A stretch of 64,000 nucleotides of DNA from Acidimicrobiales bacterium (GTDB lineage Bacteria > Actinomycetota > Acidimicrobiia > Acidimicrobiales > Iamiaceae): positions 51,698 to 115,697 of the forward strand of contig JAUJOW010000003.1 of NCBI GenBank assembly GCA_030447445.1. The letters are read 5' to 3'. The notes beneath the pieces are model-generated. The model ran no database searches. It saw nothing but the letters and a program-made list of their open reading frames with translations, and had not been told where the DNA came from. Of this stretch, positions 5,040-64,000 are shown one piece after another (positions within the stretch are counted from its first letter, which is position 1; every line of letters starts with the position of its first letter). Made by a program: the position numbers and the translations under genes.

Positions 5040-7299
<2,260 letters not shown>

Positions 7300-15582: not shown

Positions 15583-16379
15583 ACTCCGGGGACGACGCCG
15601 AGCTGGCTCGGGCGGTGGGCGAGCTGGGGGGCGACGAGCGGCCCACCGCCCGCCAGCTCGGAGAGGTGGCCAGGTTGACGGCGTCGTCGGCCCGGCGGGC
15701 GGGCACCAAGGCGGTGACGTCGGGGCGGTGGCTGGCCGAGGTGACCCTCGACGCCGCCGGTCACGTGCCGGTGCGCGACCTCGAGACCCTCATGGCCCAC
15801 CACCACGGCCAGTCCGGAGCGCTGCTGGCCGGCACGCTCATCCGCAACGCCAGCCTCGCGTCGGCCGCGGTCGGGGCCGCCACCGGGGCGATGGCGGCGG
15901 CTTCCCAGCTGACGCCGGCGACGTGGGCCGCCCTGCCCGTCGAGCTGGCGGCCGAGACGCTCGTCGTGGTGGCCGTCGAGATCAAGCTGGTGGGCGAGCT
16001 GCACGAGGCGGCCGGCATCCACATCCCGGGCCCGCTGCGGGAGAAGGGCCCGGTCCTGACCCGGGCGTGGGCCGACTCGCGGGGTCTTCGCCCCCATGAC
16101 CTGCTGGCGTTGCGGCGGGGACTCGCCGGTGCCGATGGTGCCGGGGGCGGTGCGGGGGGGAGCCTGGCCGGGGCCGCCGCCGACATGCTCGGCCGGTCGG
16201 GCCGCGATCAGCTCACGGCCCAGATCCGCAAGCGGCTCCTGCGCCGGGCCGGTGGGAACCTGTCCTCGATGGTGCCCTTCCTGGCCGGGGCGGTGGCCGG
16301 CGGGGAGCTCAACCGCCGGGCCACCCGCTCGCTCGGCACCAAGGTGGCGACCTCGCTCGGCATCCCCCCACCCCGCTGA
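15579..16379 (+). CDS. EcsC-like hypothetical protein
   Basis: GTG start overlapping preceding stop; long Ala-rich protein with LASAAVGAATGAMAAASQLTPATWAALPVELAAETLVVVAVEIKLVGELHEAAG. Confidence 0.5.
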   Translation: MNSGDDAELARAVGELGGDERPTARQLGEVARLTASSARRAGTKAVTSGRWLAEVTLDAAGHVPVRDLETLMAHHHGQSGALLAGTLIRNASLASAAVGAATGAMAAASQLTPATWAALPVELAAETLVVVAVEIKLVGELHEAAGIHIPGPLREKGPVLTRAWADSRGLRPHDLLALRRGLAGADGAGGGAGGSLAGAAADMLGRSGRDQLTAQIRKRLLRRAGGNLSSMVPFLAGAVAGGELNRRATRSLGTKVATSLGIPPPR

Positions 16380-16389
16380 GCCGGCCCCG

Positions 16390-17064
16390 GTGGCCCGCCC
16401 CGTCGAACCTCCCCCGACGACCTGGACCTTTCCTCCGCCCCATGCCGCCGACGAGGACGGCATCGTCGGCATCGGGGCCGATCTCGAGCCTGGCACCGTG
16501 CTCGCCGCCTACCGGCGGGGGCTGTTCCCGATGCCCGCCGGCCGGGGGCGGGTGCCGGCGTGGTGGTCGCCCGACCCGAGAGGCGTGATCCCCCTCGACG
16601 GGCTGCAGGTCAGCCGCTCCCTCCGGCGGTCGTGCCAGCGCTACCGGATCGGCGTCGACACCGCCTTCGAGGCGGTGCTCCACGGCTGCGCCGACCCCCG
16701 CCGCCGCGGGGCGTGGATCGACCGCCGCATGCGGGCCGCCTACCTGCGCCTGCACGAGCTGGGCTGGGCCCACAGCGTGGAGGCGTGGACGGCCGACGGC
16801 GAGCTGGCCGGCGGGCTCTACGGCATCGCCATCGGCGGGCTCTTCGCCGGGGAGTCGATGTTCCACCGCCACCGCGACGCCTCCAAGGTGACCCTGGTCG
16901 GGCTGGTCGAACGGTTGGTGCACGGTGGCGCCACCCTGCTCGACGTGCAGTGGACCACCCCGCACCTGGCCTCGCTGGGAGCCGTCGAGATCCCCCGCGA
17001 GGAGTACCTGTCCCGGCTGGCCGAAGCGCTGTCCCGCCCGCTCCCGGCCCTCTGGACCCGCTGA
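16390..17064 (+). CDS. aat: Leucyl/phenylalanyl-tRNA--protein transferase
   Basis: GIVGIGADLEPGTVLAAYRRGLFPMP...WWSPDPRGVIPLDGLQVSRSLRRSCQRY...GGLYGIAIGGLFAGESMFHRHRDASK. Confidence 0.94.
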   Translation: MARPVEPPPTTWTFPPPHAADEDGIVGIGADLEPGTVLAAYRRGLFPMPAGRGRVPAWWSPDPRGVIPLDGLQVSRSLRRSCQRYRIGVDTAFEAVLHGCADPRRRGAWIDRRMRAAYLRLHELGWAHSVEAWTADGELAGGLYGIAIGGLFAGESMFHRHRDASKVTLVGLVERLVHGGATLLDVQWTTPHLASLGAVEIPREEYLSRLAEALSRPLPALWTR

Positions 17065-17104: not shown

Positions 17105-19060
17105 ATGAAGGAGCCCAGGCCCCGAGACCGCCCGTGGATGATGCGCACCTACTCGGGCCACTCCTCGGCCCTGGCCTCGAACGAGCTGTACCGCACCAAC
17201 CTGGCCCGGGGCCAGACCGGCCTGTCGATCGCCTTCGATCTGCCCACCCAGACGGGCTACGACCCGGACTCGCCCCTGGCTCGGGGCGAGGTCGGCAAGG
17301 TCGGCGTGCCCATCGTGCACCTCGGGCACATGGAGGCCCTGCTCGACCAGATCCCGGTCGGCGAGATGAACACCTCGATGACCATCAACGCGACGGCGGC
17401 GTGGATGCTCGGGCTGTACGTGGCCAACGCCGAGGACCAGGGCGTGCCGTCCCGCCAGCTCCGGGGCACGACCCAGAACGACATCGTCAAGGAGTACCTG
17501 AGCCGCGGCACCTACATCTTCCCGCCGCTGCCGTCGCGGCGGTTGATCGTGGACATGGTGGCGTTCTGCCAGGAGTGGATCCCGCACTGGAACCCGATGA
17601 ACGTGTGCAGCTACCACCTCCAGGAGGCGGGCGCGACGCCGGTGCAGGAGCTGGCCTACTCGCTGGCCACCGCGGTGGGGGTGCTCGACGCCGTACAGGA
17701 GTCGGGCCAGGTCGCCGCCGACCGCATGCCGGCGGTGGTGGCGTCGATCTCGTTCTTCGTCAACGCCGGCATCCGCTTCGTGGAGGAGACCTGCAAGGTG
17801 CGGGCCTTCACCGAGATGTGGGACCGGCTGTGCGCCGAGCGCTACGGCGTGACCGATCCGAAGGCCCGGCGGTTCCGCTACGGCGTGCAGGTCAACAGCC
17901 TGGGGTTGACCGAAGCCCAGCCCGAGAACAACGTGCCCCGCATCGTGCTCGAGGCCCTGGGGGTGACCCTGTCGAAGCGGGCCCGGGCCCGCTCCATCCA
18001 GCTCCCGGCCTGGAACGAGGCCCTCGGCCTGCCCCGCCCGTGGGACCAGCAGTGGTCGCTGCGGGTCCAGCAGGTCCTCGCCTACGAGACCGACCTGCTC
18101 GAGTACGACGACATCTTCGACGGCTCCAAGGTGATAGAGGCCCGCACCGCCGAGCTGGTCGAGGAGGCCCAGGCCGAGCTGGACGACGTGCTCGCCCTGG
18201 GGGGCGCCTTCGAGGCCATCGACGAGCTGAAGGGCCGCCTGGTGCGCAGCCACGCCGAACGGGTGCGGCGCATCGAGAGCGGCGAGCTGCAGGTGGTCGG
18301 CGTCAACTGCTTCACCGAGACCGCCGAGTCGCCCCTCGGCGGGGAGGAGTCCATCCTGCGGGTCGATCCCGCCGTGCAGGAGCGCCTCGTGGCCGAGGTG
18401 GACGAGTGGCGCTCGACCCGGGACAACGACGCCGTGAAGCGGTCCCTCGACGAGCTGCGCCGGGTCGCCCGCTCGGGCGAGAACGTGATGCCGGCCACGA
18501 TCGACCTCGCTCACGCCGGCGGCACCACCGGCGAGTGGTCGGAGGTGCTGCGGGAGGAGTTCGGCGAGTACCGGGCCCCCACCGGCGTGGGCGCCGCCAC
18601 CGGCGTGGCCGGTGGGCTCGACGGGCTGCGGGCCCTGGCCGAGCGGGTGCGGACCATGGCCGGTGGGCCCCCCCGGTTCCTCGTGGCCAAGCCCGGCCTC
18701 GACGGGCACTCCAACGGCGCCGAGCAGATCGCCGTGGCCGCCCGGGACGCCGGCATGGAGGTCGTCTACCAGGGCATCCGGCTGACGCCGATCGAGATCG
18801 CGGCGGTGGCCAGGGACGAAGACGTCGACGTGGTGGGCCTGTCGATCCTGTCCGGCAGCCACCTCGAGCTCGTCCCCGAGGTCGTCCGCCTCCTGCGAGC
18901 GGAGGGGGTCGACGCCCCGGTGATCGCAGGTGGCATCATCCCCGAGGCCGACCGGCCTCGATTGCTCCAGGCCGGCGTGGCCGCCGTGTACACGCCGAAG
19001 GACTTCGAGTTGACCCGCATCATGACCGAGATCGCCGACCTCGCCGAAGCCGCCCGGTGA
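17105..19060 (+). CDS. ecm: Ethylmalonyl-CoA mutase (MeaA-type, B12-dependent)
   Basis: DRPWMMRTYSGHSSALASNELYRTNLARGQTGLSIAFDLPTQTGYD...NPMNVCSYHLQEAGATPVQEL; C-terminal cobalamin domain KPGLDGHSNGAEQIAVAARDAGMEVVYQG. Confidence 0.87.
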   Translation: MKEPRPRDRPWMMRTYSGHSSALASNELYRTNLARGQTGLSIAFDLPTQTGYDPDSPLARGEVGKVGVPIVHLGHMEALLDQIPVGEMNTSMTINATAAWMLGLYVANAEDQGVPSRQLRGTTQNDIVKEYLSRGTYIFPPLPSRRLIVDMVAFCQEWIPHWNPMNVCSYHLQEAGATPVQELAYSLATAVGVLDAVQESGQVAADRMPAVVASISFFVNAGIRFVEETCKVRAFTEMWDRLCAERYGVTDPKARRFRYGVQVNSLGLTEAQPENNVPRIVLEALGVTLSKRARARSIQLPAWNEALGLPRPWDQQWSLRVQQVLAYETDLLEYDDIFDGSKVIEARTAELVEEAQAELDDVLALGGAFEAIDELKGRLVRSHAERVRRIESGELQVVGVNCFTETAESPLGGEESILRVDPAVQERLVAEVDEWRSTRDNDAVKRSLDELRRVARSGENVMPATIDLAHAGGTTGEWSEVLREEFGEYRAPTGVGAATGVAGGLDGLRALAERVRTMAGGPPRFLVAKPGLDGHSNGAEQIAVAARDAGMEVVYQGIRLTPIEIAAVARDEDVDVVGLSILSGSHLELVPEVVRLLRAEGVDAPVIAGGIIPEADRPRLLQAGVAAVYTPKDFELTRIMTEIADLAEAAR

Positions 19061-19518
19061 CGACGTCTGCGTCCGGCGGCCACATCCGCGACGAGGCCTC
19101 GGGGCTGTTCAGCGAGGCGTTCCTGCACGCCGTGCTCCCGGCCCGGGTGGCGGCCTCCCGGCGGGGCCTGCACCAGCTCGGTCTCGTGGTGATCGCCATC
19201 GAGGACGGCGCCGGAGCCGAGGCCGCCGCCGTCCTCAATCGCACGGTACGGGACTCGGATCTCACCTTCCGCCTCGACGACGGCCGCTACGCGCTCATGC
19301 TGGAGGAGACGCCGGTGCACGGCTGCACCCGCACCGCCGAACGGGTCCGGGAGGGCATGGAGGTGGCCCTGCCCGGGGCCCGCCTGTGGGCGGGCGTGGC
19401 CTGCTACCCGGCCCACGCCTTCGACGCCGACGAGGTGCGGGCGGCGGCGGACCACGCACTGGTCACCGCCCGGCGGGGCGCCGCCGGCACCATCGAGGTC
19501 GCCCCCGTGGCTGACTGA
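19057..19518 (+). CDS. Degenerate GGDEF-domain protein (paralogue 1)
   Basis: TVRDSDLTFRLDDGRYALMLEETP in place of a GGDEF loop; WAGVACYPAHAFDADEVRAAADHALVTAR matches the GGDEF C-terminal helix pattern. Confidence 0.65.
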   Translation: MTTSASGGHIRDEASGLFSEAFLHAVLPARVAASRRGLHQLGLVVIAIEDGAGAEAAAVLNRTVRDSDLTFRLDDGRYALMLEETPVHGCTRTAERVREGMEVALPGARLWAGVACYPAHAFDADEVRAAADHALVTARRGAAGTIEVAPVAD

Positions 19519-19584
19519 TCCCCGGTTGCTCAGCGGCGCCAGGGAGCCCTTGATTCCCGGGCCGCATCGGCCGATCCTGTCCTC

Positions 19585-20229
19585 GTGATCGATCGTCGCG
19601 CCGTCCTCGGGTTGGTCACCGGGACGGCGGGGATCGCCTGTTCGGTGGCGGCCCTGATCAGCCTGCGCCGCACCACCGTCCGCCTGCGGACCGAGGCGCA
19701 GGCAGCCAGCCGGGACGACCCCCCGCCGCCTCCCCGCCCTCGGCCTACGCAGGCGCTCTCCTCGCCCCGGTCGGTCGGGATCACCGACGCCGAGACCGGG
19801 CTGTTCAGCGAGGCGTTCTTCCTCGCCACCCTCGACAAGCGGGTGTCGGCCGCCCGCCGTGGCCTGCGGCCGCTCGCCGTCGTGCTGCTCGAGGTGGTCG
19901 ACGGGACGGCACCGGTGGCTCCCCGGGCGGTCGCCGGCAGCCTGGTCGAGACCCTGCGCGACGCCGACACCACCTGCCGGCTGGTCGACGGCCGGTTCGC
20001 GGTGGTGCTCGAGGACACCAACGAGGCCGGCGCGGTGTGGACCATCGAGCGGGTGCGTCGCCGTCTCGTCGAGGACGACGCCAGCCGCACGGTGTGGGCC
20101 GGCGTGGCCTGCTACCCGGCCCACGCCTTCGACGCCGCCCAGATCCTCGAGCAGTCCCGCCGGGCCCTGGATGCCGCCAAGGACTGGGGTCAGCACCGCA
20201 TCGAGGTCGCCGCCATCCCCGACGACTGA
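19585..20229 (+). CDS. Degenerate GGDEF-domain protein with N-terminal TM segment (paralogue 2)
   Basis: GTG start; TM AVLGLVTGTAGIACSVAALISL; TLRDADTTCRLVDGRFAVVLEDT; WAGVACYPAHAFDAAQILEQSRRALDAAK shared with paralogue 1. Confidence 0.65.
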   Translation: MIDRRAVLGLVTGTAGIACSVAALISLRRTTVRLRTEAQAASRDDPPPPPRPRPTQALSSPRSVGITDAETGLFSEAFFLATLDKRVSAARRGLRPLAVVLLEVVDGTAPVAPRAVAGSLVETLRDADTTCRLVDGRFAVVLEDTNEAGAVWTIERVRRRLVEDDASRTVWAGVACYPAHAFDAAQILEQSRRALDAAKDWGQHRIEVAAIPDD

Positions 20230-38319: not shown

Positions 38320-39660
38320 TCAGGCGCCGTGGCGGCGGAACAAGGTGATGCGGTCCTCGCCCACCTGGGCGCGGAAGGCGGGGTCGTCGATGCCCTCCCC
38401 TTCGGCCGGGGCCAGGCAGAGCACGCCGATCTTGCCCTCGTGGACGTTGCGGTGCACCGCCGAGGCGGCGTCACCGACCGCCTCGAGCGGGTGGACGGCC
38501 GACAGGATGGGTTGGATGCGCCCCTCGCAGATGAGGCGGTTGGCCTCCCAGGCCTCCCGGTAGTTGGCGAAGTGGGAGCTGACGATGCTCTTGAGCTTCA
38601 TCCAGAGGTGGCGGTTGTCGTACTCGATCATGTAGCCGCTCGTGGCGGCGCAGGTGACGACCTTGCCACCGCGGGCGGCCACGAACACCGAGGCCCCCAT
38701 GGTCTGGCGGCCGGGATGCTCGAAGACGATGTCGGGGTCCCGCCCGGCGAGGGCCCGGACGTCCTTGCCGAAGCGGCGCCACTCCTTCTCGTCCTGGGTG
38801 TGCTCGTCGGCCCAGAAGCGGTAGCCGGCGGCCTTGCGGTCGATGACGGCCTCGCAACCGAGCTCCTGCAGCAGCTCCACCTTCGACGCCGACGACACCA
38901 CGCCCACCGGCGTGCCGCCGCCGTTGAGCACGTACTGCACGGCGTAGCCACCGAGGCCGCCCGAGGCCCCCCAGATCAGCACCACGTCGCCCTGCTTCAT
39001 GGCTCCGGCGTTGTGGCTCACGAGCATCCGGTAGCTGGTGGAGTTGGTGAGCGCGTTGCAGGCCGCCTCCTCCCAGGAGAGGTGGCGGGGCTTCGGCATG
39101 AGCTGGTTGGCCTTGACCACGGCGAGGTCGGCGAGGCCACCGAAGTTGGACTCGAAGCCCCAGATGCGCTGGTTGGTGGCCAGCATCGAGTCGTCATGGG
39201 CCGACGGGTCCTGGTCGTCCACGTGGTTGCAGTGGATGGTCACCCGATCTCCCGGTGACCAGTTGCGCACCGCGGAGCCGACCCGCAGGACCACCCCGGA
39301 GCCGTCCGAGCCGACCACGTGGTAGGGCTGGGCGTGCCGAGCCCCCCAGGCCGACTCCTTGGCCAGGCGGTCGAGGAACCCGAAGGTGGGCAGCGGCTCG
39401 AAGATCGACGTCCACACCGTGTTGAAGTTGATGGCGCTGGCCATCACGGCCACGTAGACCTCGTCGGGGGCCAGCTCCGGGGTGGGCACCTCGTCGACGT
39501 GCAGCGACTTGCGGGGGTCCTTGTCGGCCGAGTCGAGCCCGTCGAACATGTCGACCTCGTCGCGCTTCACGAAGGCGGCCCGGTACGACTCCGGCACCGG
39601 CAGGTTGGCGAGCTCCTCTCCAGCGGCGCCGGCCTGGATCGCTTCGAGGATCTGGTGCAT
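38320..39660 (-). CDS. ccr: Crotonyl-CoA carboxylase/reductase
   Basis: VAVMASAINFNTVWTSIFEPLPTFGFLDRLAKESAWGARHAQPYHVVGSDGSGVVLRVG...WGFESNFGGLADLAVVKANQLMPKPRHLSWEEAAC...GGRVVTCAATSGY-like motif. Confidence 0.94.
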   Translation of the reverse strand: MHQILEAIQAGAAGEELANLPVPESYRAAFVKRDEVDMFDGLDSADKDPRKSLHVDEVPTPELAPDEVYVAVMASAINFNTVWTSIFEPLPTFGFLDRLAKESAWGARHAQPYHVVGSDGSGVVLRVGSAVRNWSPGDRVTIHCNHVDDQDPSAHDDSMLATNQRIWGFESNFGGLADLAVVKANQLMPKPRHLSWEEAACNALTNSTSYRMLVSHNAGAMKQGDVVLIWGASGGLGGYAVQYVLNGGGTPVGVVSSASKVELLQELGCEAVIDRKAAGYRFWADEHTQDEKEWRRFGKDVRALAGRDPDIVFEHPGRQTMGASVFVAARGGKVVTCAATSGYMIEYDNRHLWMKLKSIVSSHFANYREAWEANRLICEGRIQPILSAVHPLEAVGDAASAVHRNVHEGKIGVLCLAPAEGEGIDDPAFRAQVGEDRITLFRRHGA

Positions 39661-61218: not shown

Positions 61219-64000
61219 TCAGGACGCGGCGCGGGCCTGGGCCCACTCCAGGAGCTCGTCGGGTGGCACGGGCGGGCAGAACAGGTAGCCCTGGGCCAGG
61301 TCGCAGCCGAGGGCGGTGAGCGCCTCGAGCTGGTTCTCGGTCTCCACCCCTTCGGCCACCGAAGTGAACCCCAGGTCGCGGGCCAGTACCAGCGACGCCG
61401 AGCAGATGGCCTGGTCGCGGGCCGCCCGGCTCTCGAGATCGGCGACGAAGGACCGGTCGATCTTGAGCTGGTCGGCCATGCCGAACCGGCGCACGTAGTC
61501 GAGCGACGAGTACCCGGTGCCGAAGTCGTCGATGGCCACACCCACGCCGAGGTCGTGGAGTGCGTCGAGGGCCTGGACGGCCACGTCCAGGTCTTCCACT
61601 AGGGCGCTCTCGGTGAGCTCGAGCCCGATGGCGGACGGCGGCAGGTCGTGTTCGGCCAGCGCCGCCGCCACCGTGCGGGGGAAGTCGGGATCGGAGAGCT
61701 GGCGGGCCGACACGTTGACGGTCACCTTCATGTCACCCATCCCGTCCATGGCCCGCCACGCCGAGATCTGGGCACAGGCCTGGCACAACACCCAACGGTC
61801 GATGGGCACGATGAGGCCTGTCTCCTCGGCCACGGGGACGAACAGGTCGGGCACGACCAGCTCGTGGCCGGGCCGGTCCCAGCGCACGAGCGCCTCGGCC
61901 CCGACGAGGGAACCGTCGTCGATCCGCACCACCGGCTGGTAGTGGACGACGAGCTGCTGCTCGGACAGCGCCACCCGCAGCGCCCGCTCGAGGTCGAGGC
62001 GGAGCACCACCCGCTCGTGCAACGCCTCCTCGAACACGGCGTGGCCGGCGCGGCCCTGCTCCTTGGCCCGGTACATGGCGGCGTCGGCGTCGCGGATGAG
62101 GGCCTCGGGGTCGGCCCTGGCGCTGTCGGCCAGGGTGATGCCGACGCTGGCCGTCACGACCACCTCTTCGCCGCCGAGCTCGAAGGGATCGAGCAGGGCG
62201 GCGGCCAGCGCCTCGGCCACGGCGACAGCCCCGACCTCGCCGCCCACCTCCTCGCACACGACGAGGAACTCGTCGCCTCCCAGGCGCCCCACGGTGTCCC
62301 CGGCGCGGACGGCACCGGTGAAGCGCTCGGCGACGTGGCCGAGGAGGAGGTCACCGGCAGCGTGGCCCAGGCTGTCGTTTATGAGCTTGAACTGGTCGAG
62401 GTCGACGAGGAGGACGGCCACGTCGGCGGTGCGGCGCCGGCCCCGGAGCAACGCCTGGCTGACCCGGTCGAGCAGCAGGGTGCGGTTCGGGAGCCCGGTC
62501 AGCTCGTCGGCCACGGCGAGGTGCTCGAGCCGCTCCTCGAAGCGTCGCCGCTCGACGGCGATGGCAGCGAGGTCGCGGGCTCGCTCCACGATCTCGACCT
62601 CGGCCGGTTCGGGACCCCGGGCCTCGGGCACGAACACGGCCACCACCCCCAGGTGGGCGCCGGTGCCGGGCGCCGTCATCGGGTAGCACCAGCAGGCGCG
62701 AAAGCCGGCCGCCTGGACGGCGGGGTGCAGCGCCTTCCACCGGCGGTCGTTGGCGATGTCGGGAAACAGGGTGGGCTGACCGGAGCGCACCGCCTGGCCG
62801 ATCTCGGCCTCGGGCGGGGACATGTCGAGGGCGGCGACGAGCGTGCCCGGGAGCGAGGTGGGGAAGGGGTGGCGCATCACGTCGTCGGCGTCGAGGATCG
62901 ACACGGTGACCCCCGAGCCCGGCAGCCGGTCCTCGATGAGAGCCGCCGCCCGCTCGACCGTGGTCATCAAGGGCCGGCCCCGCGCTACTCCCTCGAGGGC
63001 GTTGGCCTGGTCCCGCACGAGGTCCTCGGCCCGGCGACGGTCGCTCACGTCGCGGCCGTTGAGGACGATGCCCTCCACGTCGGGGTCGTCGACCAGGTTG
63101 GTGCCGAGCACCTCCAGGTTGCGCCACGTGCCGCCCACCCACACCCGCAACTCGACCGGGTCGGAGCGGCCGGGGGTCGACACCGCCGCCTGCAGCGCTT
63201 GCCGGGCGATCGGCTGGTCGTCGGGGTGCACCTGGTCGAACACGTCCCTGAGGCCCTCGGCATCCTCCGGCAGGCCGAGCACCTCGGTCACCGCGGGGCT
63301 CGAGTAGCGCACCGAGCCGTCCCGGTCGACGAGCACGATGACGTCGGAGGAGTTCTGGACGAGGGCACGGAACCGACGCTCGCTCTGGCGCAGGGCGTTG
63401 GCCGCCTCCACCTGGTGGGTGACGTCGTGGGCGTTGACGACGATGCCGTGCACGTCTGAGTCGGTGCTGAGGTCGTGGCCGAAGACGTCGAGGAAGCGGA
63501 TGCTTCCGTCCTCGTGCACCATCCGCCAGCGGCTGCTCGTGGAGGCCGGGCCGTCGCCGCTGACCGAGGCCACCTCGAAGCGGGCGAAGTCGACGTCGTC
63601 AGGGTGCACCAGCTCGAAGCAGTCGCCGCCGACGAGGTCCTCGGCGGCGCGACCGAGGACGGCGCCCGCCGAGGGCGACGCCCAGGAGATGGTGCCGTCC
63701 CGGTCGATCAGCAGGATGAGGTCGAAGCCGTGGCGCACGAGGGACTGCGACCAGGCCTCGCTGCGCCGCAAGCGCTCCTCGGCCTCGTGGCGGTCGGTGT
63801 CGTCGCGGGCGCTGACGACGAGACCCCCGACGGTGGGGTCGTCGAGCCTGTTCGTGACGACCGCCTGGAAGAAGCGCACCGACCCGTCAGCAGCCCGCAG
63901 GTTCACCCCGAACGGGCCGTGCGGGCCCGGTGTGCGGGAGATGGTGCTGAAGCGGTCGTCGAAGCCCGGGTGCAAGTCACGCACGACGATGTCGGCGACG
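61219..64000 (-). CDS. PAS/GAF/GGDEF/EAL protein, N-terminus beyond the right edge
   Basis: VRAGDTVGRLGGDEFLVVCEE (intact GGDEF plus RxxD I-site); LVGAEALVRWDRP, LTESALVEDLD, DDFGTGYSSLDYVRRFGMADQLKIDRSFV (intact EAL). Confidence 0.94.
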   Translation of the reverse strand, partial: VADIVVRDLHPGFDDRFSTISRTPGPHGPFGVNLRAADGSVRFFQAVVTNRLDDPTVGGLVVSARDDTDRHEAEERLRRSEAWSQSLVRHGFDLILLIDRDGTISWASPSAGAVLGRAAEDLVGGDCFELVHPDDVDFARFEVASVSGDGPASTSSRWRMVHEDGSIRFLDVFGHDLSTDSDVHGIVVNAHDVTHQVEAANALRQSERRFRALVQNSSDVIVLVDRDGSVRYSSPAVTEVLGLPEDAEGLRDVFDQVHPDDQPIARQALQAAVSTPGRSDPVELRVWVGGTWRNLEVLGTNLVDDPDVEGIVLNGRDVSDRRRAEDLVRDQANALEGVARGRPLMTTVERAAALIEDRLPGSGVTVSILDADDVMRHPFPTSLPGTLVAALDMSPPEAEIGQAVRSGQPTLFPDIANDRRWKALHPAVQAAGFRACWCYPMTAPGTGAHLGVVAVFVPEARGPEPAEVEIVERARDLAAIAVERRRFEERLEHLAVADELTGLPNRTLLLDRVSQALLRGRRRTADVAVLLVDLDQFKLINDSLGHAAGDLLLGHVAERFTGAVRAGDTVGRLGGDEFLVVCEEVGGEVGAVAVAEALAAALLDPFELGGEEVVVTASVGITLADSARADPEALIRDADAAMYRAKEQGRAGHAVFEEALHERVVLRLDLERALRVALSEQQLVVHYQPVVRIDDGSLVGAEALVRWDRPGHELVVPDLFVPVAEETGLIVPIDRWVLCQACAQISAWRAMDGMGDMKVTVNVSARQLSDPDFPRTVAAALAEHDLPPSAIGLELTESALVEDLDVAVQALDALHDLGVGVAIDDFGTGYSSLDYVRRFGMADQLKIDRSFVADLESRAARDQAICSASLVLARDLGFTSVAEGVETENQLEALTALGCDLAQGYLFCPPVPPDELLEWAQARAAS

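Follow-up and report, generated by a model that had tools for sequence, protein, structure and literature searches.

Degenerate GGDEF domains that bind c-di-GMP through RxxD, the motif of the inhibitory site (I-site), have been described in several bacteria. In WspR, the RxxD arginine contacts c-di-GMP at the I-site (PMC2270323). YdaK, from Bacillus subtilis, is a membrane-anchored, catalytically dead GGDEF protein, whose binding of c-di-GMP needs the RxxD arginine, R202; it features four transmembrane helices and belongs to an exopolysaccharide operon (PMC7064775). In PelD, a membrane-associated degenerate GGDEF protein from Pseudomonas aeruginosa, RxxD is used for reception, and the same role is played by the intact I-site which accompanies the degenerate active site of PopA, from Caulobacter (both reviewed in PMC10333796). 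BcsE carries a dead domain, GGDEF*, which binds c-di-GMP via RxxD (R415, D418) and has a separate face for partner proteins (PMC7439463); in SgmT, a dead GGDEF domain binding c-di-GMP by RxxD is one domain of a kinase (PMC3509222).

Two proteins apparently related to these systems are encoded in the window analyzed here, the whole 64,000-nucleotide stretch of DNA from an Acidimicrobiales bacterium. Their genes are adjacent on the + strand, directly 3' of an acyl-CoA mutase gene, and both begin at a predicted GTG start codon, which also sets the predicted N-terminus. P0001 (19057-19518, +) is a degenerate GGDEF-domain protein of 153 aa; P0002 (19585-20229, +), of 214 aa, is the N-terminally anchored, ancestral-type copy. 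An earlier note had described the former as soluble and the latter as carrying an N-terminal membrane segment, and hydrophobicity agrees: no membrane segment is found in P0001, while in P0002 positions 19600-19665 (+) encode a hydrophobic, membrane-spanning-like segment (Kyte-Doolittle 19-residue mean 2.07). The Pfam GGDEF profile (PF00990, curated cut-off 23.8) matches P0001 with 30.1 bits and P0002 with 42.7 bits; no other Pfam family scores above its own cut-off in either protein, in a search of the Pfam profiles. Profile match and fold, described below, place both in the GGDEF-domain superfamily.

Like YdaK, these are dead GGDEF domains with an intact I-site, membrane-anchored in the P0002-type form, but the family is found behind an acyl-CoA mutase or behind aat (leucyl/phenylalanyl-tRNA-protein transferase), with one hydrophobic segment or two at the N-terminus. 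The likeness to PelD lies in the membrane association and in the degenerate GGDEF domain with RxxD; PelD, however, has a GAF domain, a GGDEF core degraded much further and a role in Pel polysaccharide control, whereas the core is complete in the present proteins, whose closest folds are canonical cyclases. Gene neighbors and Pfam content also differ from those of PelD and YdaK, so that orthology, which would imply a shared context, a GAF domain and an exopolysaccharide synthase operon, is not indicated. PopA is similar in its degenerate active site and intact I-site, but its architecture is REC-REC-GGDEF and the cited literature describes no membrane anchor for it, while no REC domain is present in P0001 or P0002. 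BcsE GGDEF* and SgmT share the dead domain with RxxD, and differ in domain architecture, gene context and taxa. By sequence and by analogy, the family is best read as a further instance of the known kind, membrane-anchored I-site c-di-GMP receptors such as YdaK, PelD and PopA; a receptor role is suggested because the experimental precedents (YdaK, BcsE, SgmT, PopA and PelD) follow the same logic.

The register of the motifs was established by alignment with PleD and WspR, using sequences checked in the PDB. PleD residues R359, D362, GGEEF 368-372 and R390 correspond to alignment columns 65, 68, 74-78 and 96. The earlier note had proposed that DDGRY and VDGRF stand in place of GG(D/E)EF, with RDSD and RDAD five residues upstream; the alignment bears this out. 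The arginines (PleD R359, WspR R242) and aspartates (D362, D245) align with RxxD, that is with the putative I-sites RDSD of P0001 (19249-19260, +) and RDAD of P0002 (19957-19968, +), and GGEEF aligns with the lost catalytic loops, DDGRY (19276-19290, +) and VDGRF (19984-19998, +), respectively. The equivalent of PleD R390, the third primary I-site residue, is also kept in both proteins. Substrate-side metal residues are not conserved in the family: neither a GG(D/E)EF loop nor conserved metal-binding acidic residues, as in an active diguanylate cyclase, are present. The sequences thus combine a lost A-site with an in-register RxxD, as do receptors of the PopA, PelD, YdaK and BcsE kind. For the secondary I-site the register is ambiguous: R26 and R27 are almost invariant in the family, and R27 corresponds to WspR R198 by ungapped count from the DxD aspartate, while in the HMM alignment column 30 holds R198 and column 24 holds PleD R313.

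Structure prediction supports the assignment. AlphaFold models have a pLDDT of 92.3 for P0001 and 95.6 for the P0002 domain (pTM 0.90), and the nearest solved structures found by Foldseek are GGDEF domains (WspR, GcbC, PleD, MorA), with TMq about 0.8-0.87 to WspR and PleD; several of them are c-di-GMP-bound. Structure prediction, by which the earlier note could have been refuted, came out in favor of a GGDEF domain.

Conservation was evaluated on 90 non-redundant family members, left after dropping sequences more than 90% identical. The catalytic motif GG[DE]E is found in none of them, while RxxD is present in 89, and all 90 have the equivalent of PleD R390; conservation of RxxD among orthologues, on which the receptor proposal depended, thus holds with the catalytic loop lost throughout. 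Because 89 of 90 relatives show this pattern too, its presence in P0001 and P0002 is far beyond chance. Ranked by conservation among 152 columns, D362 is 8th, R390 10th and R359 16th; the five columns of the GGDEF loop rank 121st, 100th, 105th, 107th and 65th. Parsimony on the family tree gives a similar picture: one step for R359, one for D362 and none for R390, against 23-35 for each GGDEF-loop column. Residual catalysis was considered and rejected, as every catalytic column drifts.

The drift of the columns holding metal and substrate residues (33 changes for D327, 25 and 33 for E370 and E371) indicates that selection does not act on the pocket at the catalytic side. This bears on the possibility that a remodelled pocket senses another nucleotide, whether GTP, (p)ppGpp, c-di-AMP or some further cyclic dinucleotide. 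GTP binding and ATP hydrolysis are both known from degenerate GGDEF domains (PMC10333796), and structures of PleD with ppGpp and pppGpp are available (PDB 9g85 and 9g86); yet the residues frozen in the family are those of the c-di-GMP I-site, not those of the pocket, and sensing of a different nucleotide appears quite improbable.

It could also be that the I-site residues are kept for the structure or for a protein interface, the protein being an inactive scaffold without a nucleotide ligand, working only through dimerisation or contact with a partner. Many further positions are just as frozen (Y117, P118, H120, G113, R26, R27, C116), salt bridges between RxxD and the R390 equivalent are conceivable, and the PdeB GGDEF domain is described as working through binding to a landmark protein (PMC9061725). 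However, when 97 canonical GGDEF domains, taken from 13 genomes of Acidimicrobiia, are placed in an HMM alignment, RxxD is found in 59 and the R390 equivalent in 62 (family against canonical domains, Fisher p about 1e-11, sequences treated as independent). Since 38 of the 97 lack RxxD, the GGDEF fold does not require it, and the structural reason for its persistence, which the earlier note had left standing as an alternative, is weakened. The co-retention of all three primary I-site residues and the absence of the family from genomes without cyclases, reported below, also speak against a scaffold, which is regarded as rather unlikely.

Two sequences depart from the common pattern. L088 (G149; 5665-6462, +) is the only clear member without RxxD: it has DQRH and the loop AGGEF, in a genome with 15 GGDEF matches. 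L123 (G114; 5851-6432, +), a divergent, lower-scoring relative from the same taxonomic family as the window, no longer has the RxxD arginine; it is not near a mutase, and its genome has a single canonical GGDEF match.

The distribution of the family was followed in three sets: 27 loci in named genomes, almost all of them bearing the title of Acidimicrobiia or of one of its subgroups; a class sample of 395 genomes; and a phylum sample of 397 genomes. Relatives from the first two sets were extracted with flanking DNA. Members were found in 79 of the 395 genomes, a count which depends on a bit-score cut for membership and on draft and metagenome-assembled genomes. A wider actinobacterial distribution was rejected: in the 397-genome phylum sample nothing scores above about 90 bits outside Acidimicrobiia, and of the two best matches found there, a quick check showed one to have an intact GGEEF and the other no match to the motif. 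The family is confined to Acidimicrobiia in the samples examined.

The P0001/P0002 pair is a local duplication. A hydrophobic N-terminal segment precedes the domain in 71 of 76 family-bearing genomes examined, and in most relatives the membrane-anchored copy stands alone. P0001-type copies form a clade (support 0.995) including the window, L010, L011, L013 and G110, with a P0002-type copy adjacent in every case: the duplication placed the soluble copy directly 3' of the mutase or of aat, upstream of the membrane copy.

In the class sample, presence of the family follows that of c-di-GMP enzymes. A canonical GGDEF domain is present in all 79 family-bearing genomes, and none of the 126 genomes without canonical GGDEF domains has a member. 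Among mutase-bearing genomes, the family occurs in 68 out of 148 with a canonical GGDEF and in 0 out of 17 without; Fisher tests on such co-occurrences treat genomes as independent. The same direction is seen within one taxonomic family, f4, where the sampled genomes of genus g8 have the mutase and no family member, four out of five lacking any cyclase match, while in its other genera both family and cyclases are present. EAL domains were found in 13 of 13 genomes tested. The window genome has 7 canonical GGDEF matches and 9 EAL matches, so that c-di-GMP biosynthesis, to be expected in the host of a receptor, is indicated there as in all 79. A PAS-PAS-GAF-GGDEF-EAL protein of this genome, with GGDEF intact, reaches the window's end (61222-63999, -) and is likely a c-di-GMP synthase or hydrolase. 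Two genomes of genus g40, G205 and G271, each combine a single canonical GGDEF match with a family member whose RxxD is intact; for the G205 member (L084), the domain match is limited to profile positions 1-118.

Because a dead loop and a frozen I-site occur together, always in genomes with c-di-GMP synthase domains, P0001 and P0002 are likely to be GGDEF domains that have lost catalysis and been retained as c-di-GMP receptors, as judged from sequence, models and analogy. Against this stand the lack of RxxD in L088 despite its cyclase-rich genome, and the lack of an output domain pointing to a target. The ligand, probably as an intercalated dimer, would bind the I-site formed by RxxD and the R390 equivalent, where it may bridge two dead GGDEF domains; binding would alter a protein-protein contact. 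P0002-type proteins would be anchored in the membrane by their N-terminal hydrophobic helices, followed by a linker and a receptor domain, presumably cytoplasmic as in YdaK and PelD; P0001 is a soluble duplicate limited to the window's lineage. The family probably represents previously undescribed c-di-GMP sensors, and would give a large, mostly uncultured actinobacterial class a family of receptors for a second messenger that is nearly universal. Its evolutionary signature, a drifting active site with a frozen ligand site, may be searched for elsewhere.

The upstream gene (17105-19060, +) is of the ethylmalonyl-CoA-mutase type: its product matches PF01642 with 418.6 bits and the B12-binding domain with 80.9 bits, scores 493 against the methylmalonyl-CoA mutase (MCM) equivalog NF006944, far under the cut-off of 876, and co-occurs in the same genome with a crotonyl-CoA carboxylase/reductase (Ccr; 38389-39573, -; TIGR01751, 551 bits). 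The latter supports the presence of the ethylmalonyl-CoA pathway in the source organism, as far as profile matches indicate. Ccr is over cut-off in all five mutase-bearing genomes tested, the window's included, and in neither of two mutase-less ones. The 4-bp overlap between the mutase stop and the P0001 start, claimed in the earlier note, is confirmed as GTGA at 19057-19060. A survey of gene neighborhoods showed the link to be real and wide: among 76 family-bearing genomes, 59 have the mutase as the first gene detected upstream, 21 of them with an exact 4-base overlap, and six more have it within 5 kb on the same contig. Neighbors of the family are the acyl-CoA mutase, aat and 3-hydroxyacyl-CoA dehydrogenase. 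In the window aat (16096-17064, +; true start inside the ORF) precedes the mutase; in lineages without the mutase it is the direct upstream neighbor of the family. Being often directly upstream in the first 27 loci, aat was considered as the ancestral partner, and set aside when the wider sample placed the mutase upstream of most deep-branching members.

As 11 of the 79 family-bearing genomes have no such mutase, and the two of them that were tested lack Ccr as well, the mutase is not an obligatory partner, an obligatory partnership is rejected as sole explanation, and the protein can persist without the ethylmalonyl-CoA pathway. The same 11 genomes make it hard to see in these proteins functionless remnants of decaying diguanylate cyclases, carried along with the mutase operon, as the loss of the catalytic loop and the absence of an output domain might suggest; class-wide conservation with many invariant columns, and duplication and retention in the window's lineage, make such decay extremely improbable.

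If the proteins are receptors, co-expression would make the mutase, or its carbon flux, the first candidate output, while the persistence pattern argues against the mutase as the only one. A more specific proposal, in which a class-wide, dedicated receptor family regulates the ethylmalonyl-CoA mutase step, for instance by drawing the co-translated mutase to the membrane or gating it there, is considered unlikely. If true, it would couple acetate/C2 assimilation to lifestyle signaling via c-di-GMP, and P0001, being soluble, would serve this mutase as an additional receptor in the cytosol. No paper tying a degenerate GGDEF protein to Acidimicrobiia or to ethylmalonyl-CoA mutase, and no description of a connection between c-di-GMP and ethylmalonyl-CoA carbon assimilation, was found in open full texts, a body of literature outside which most subscription journals fall; the operon link makes such a connection directly testable.

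At L017 (4500-5537, +) a gene of the beta-eliminating-lyase family lies between the mutase and the dead GGDEF gene, and other genomes of the same taxonomic family, f9, show a gap of similar size at this position.
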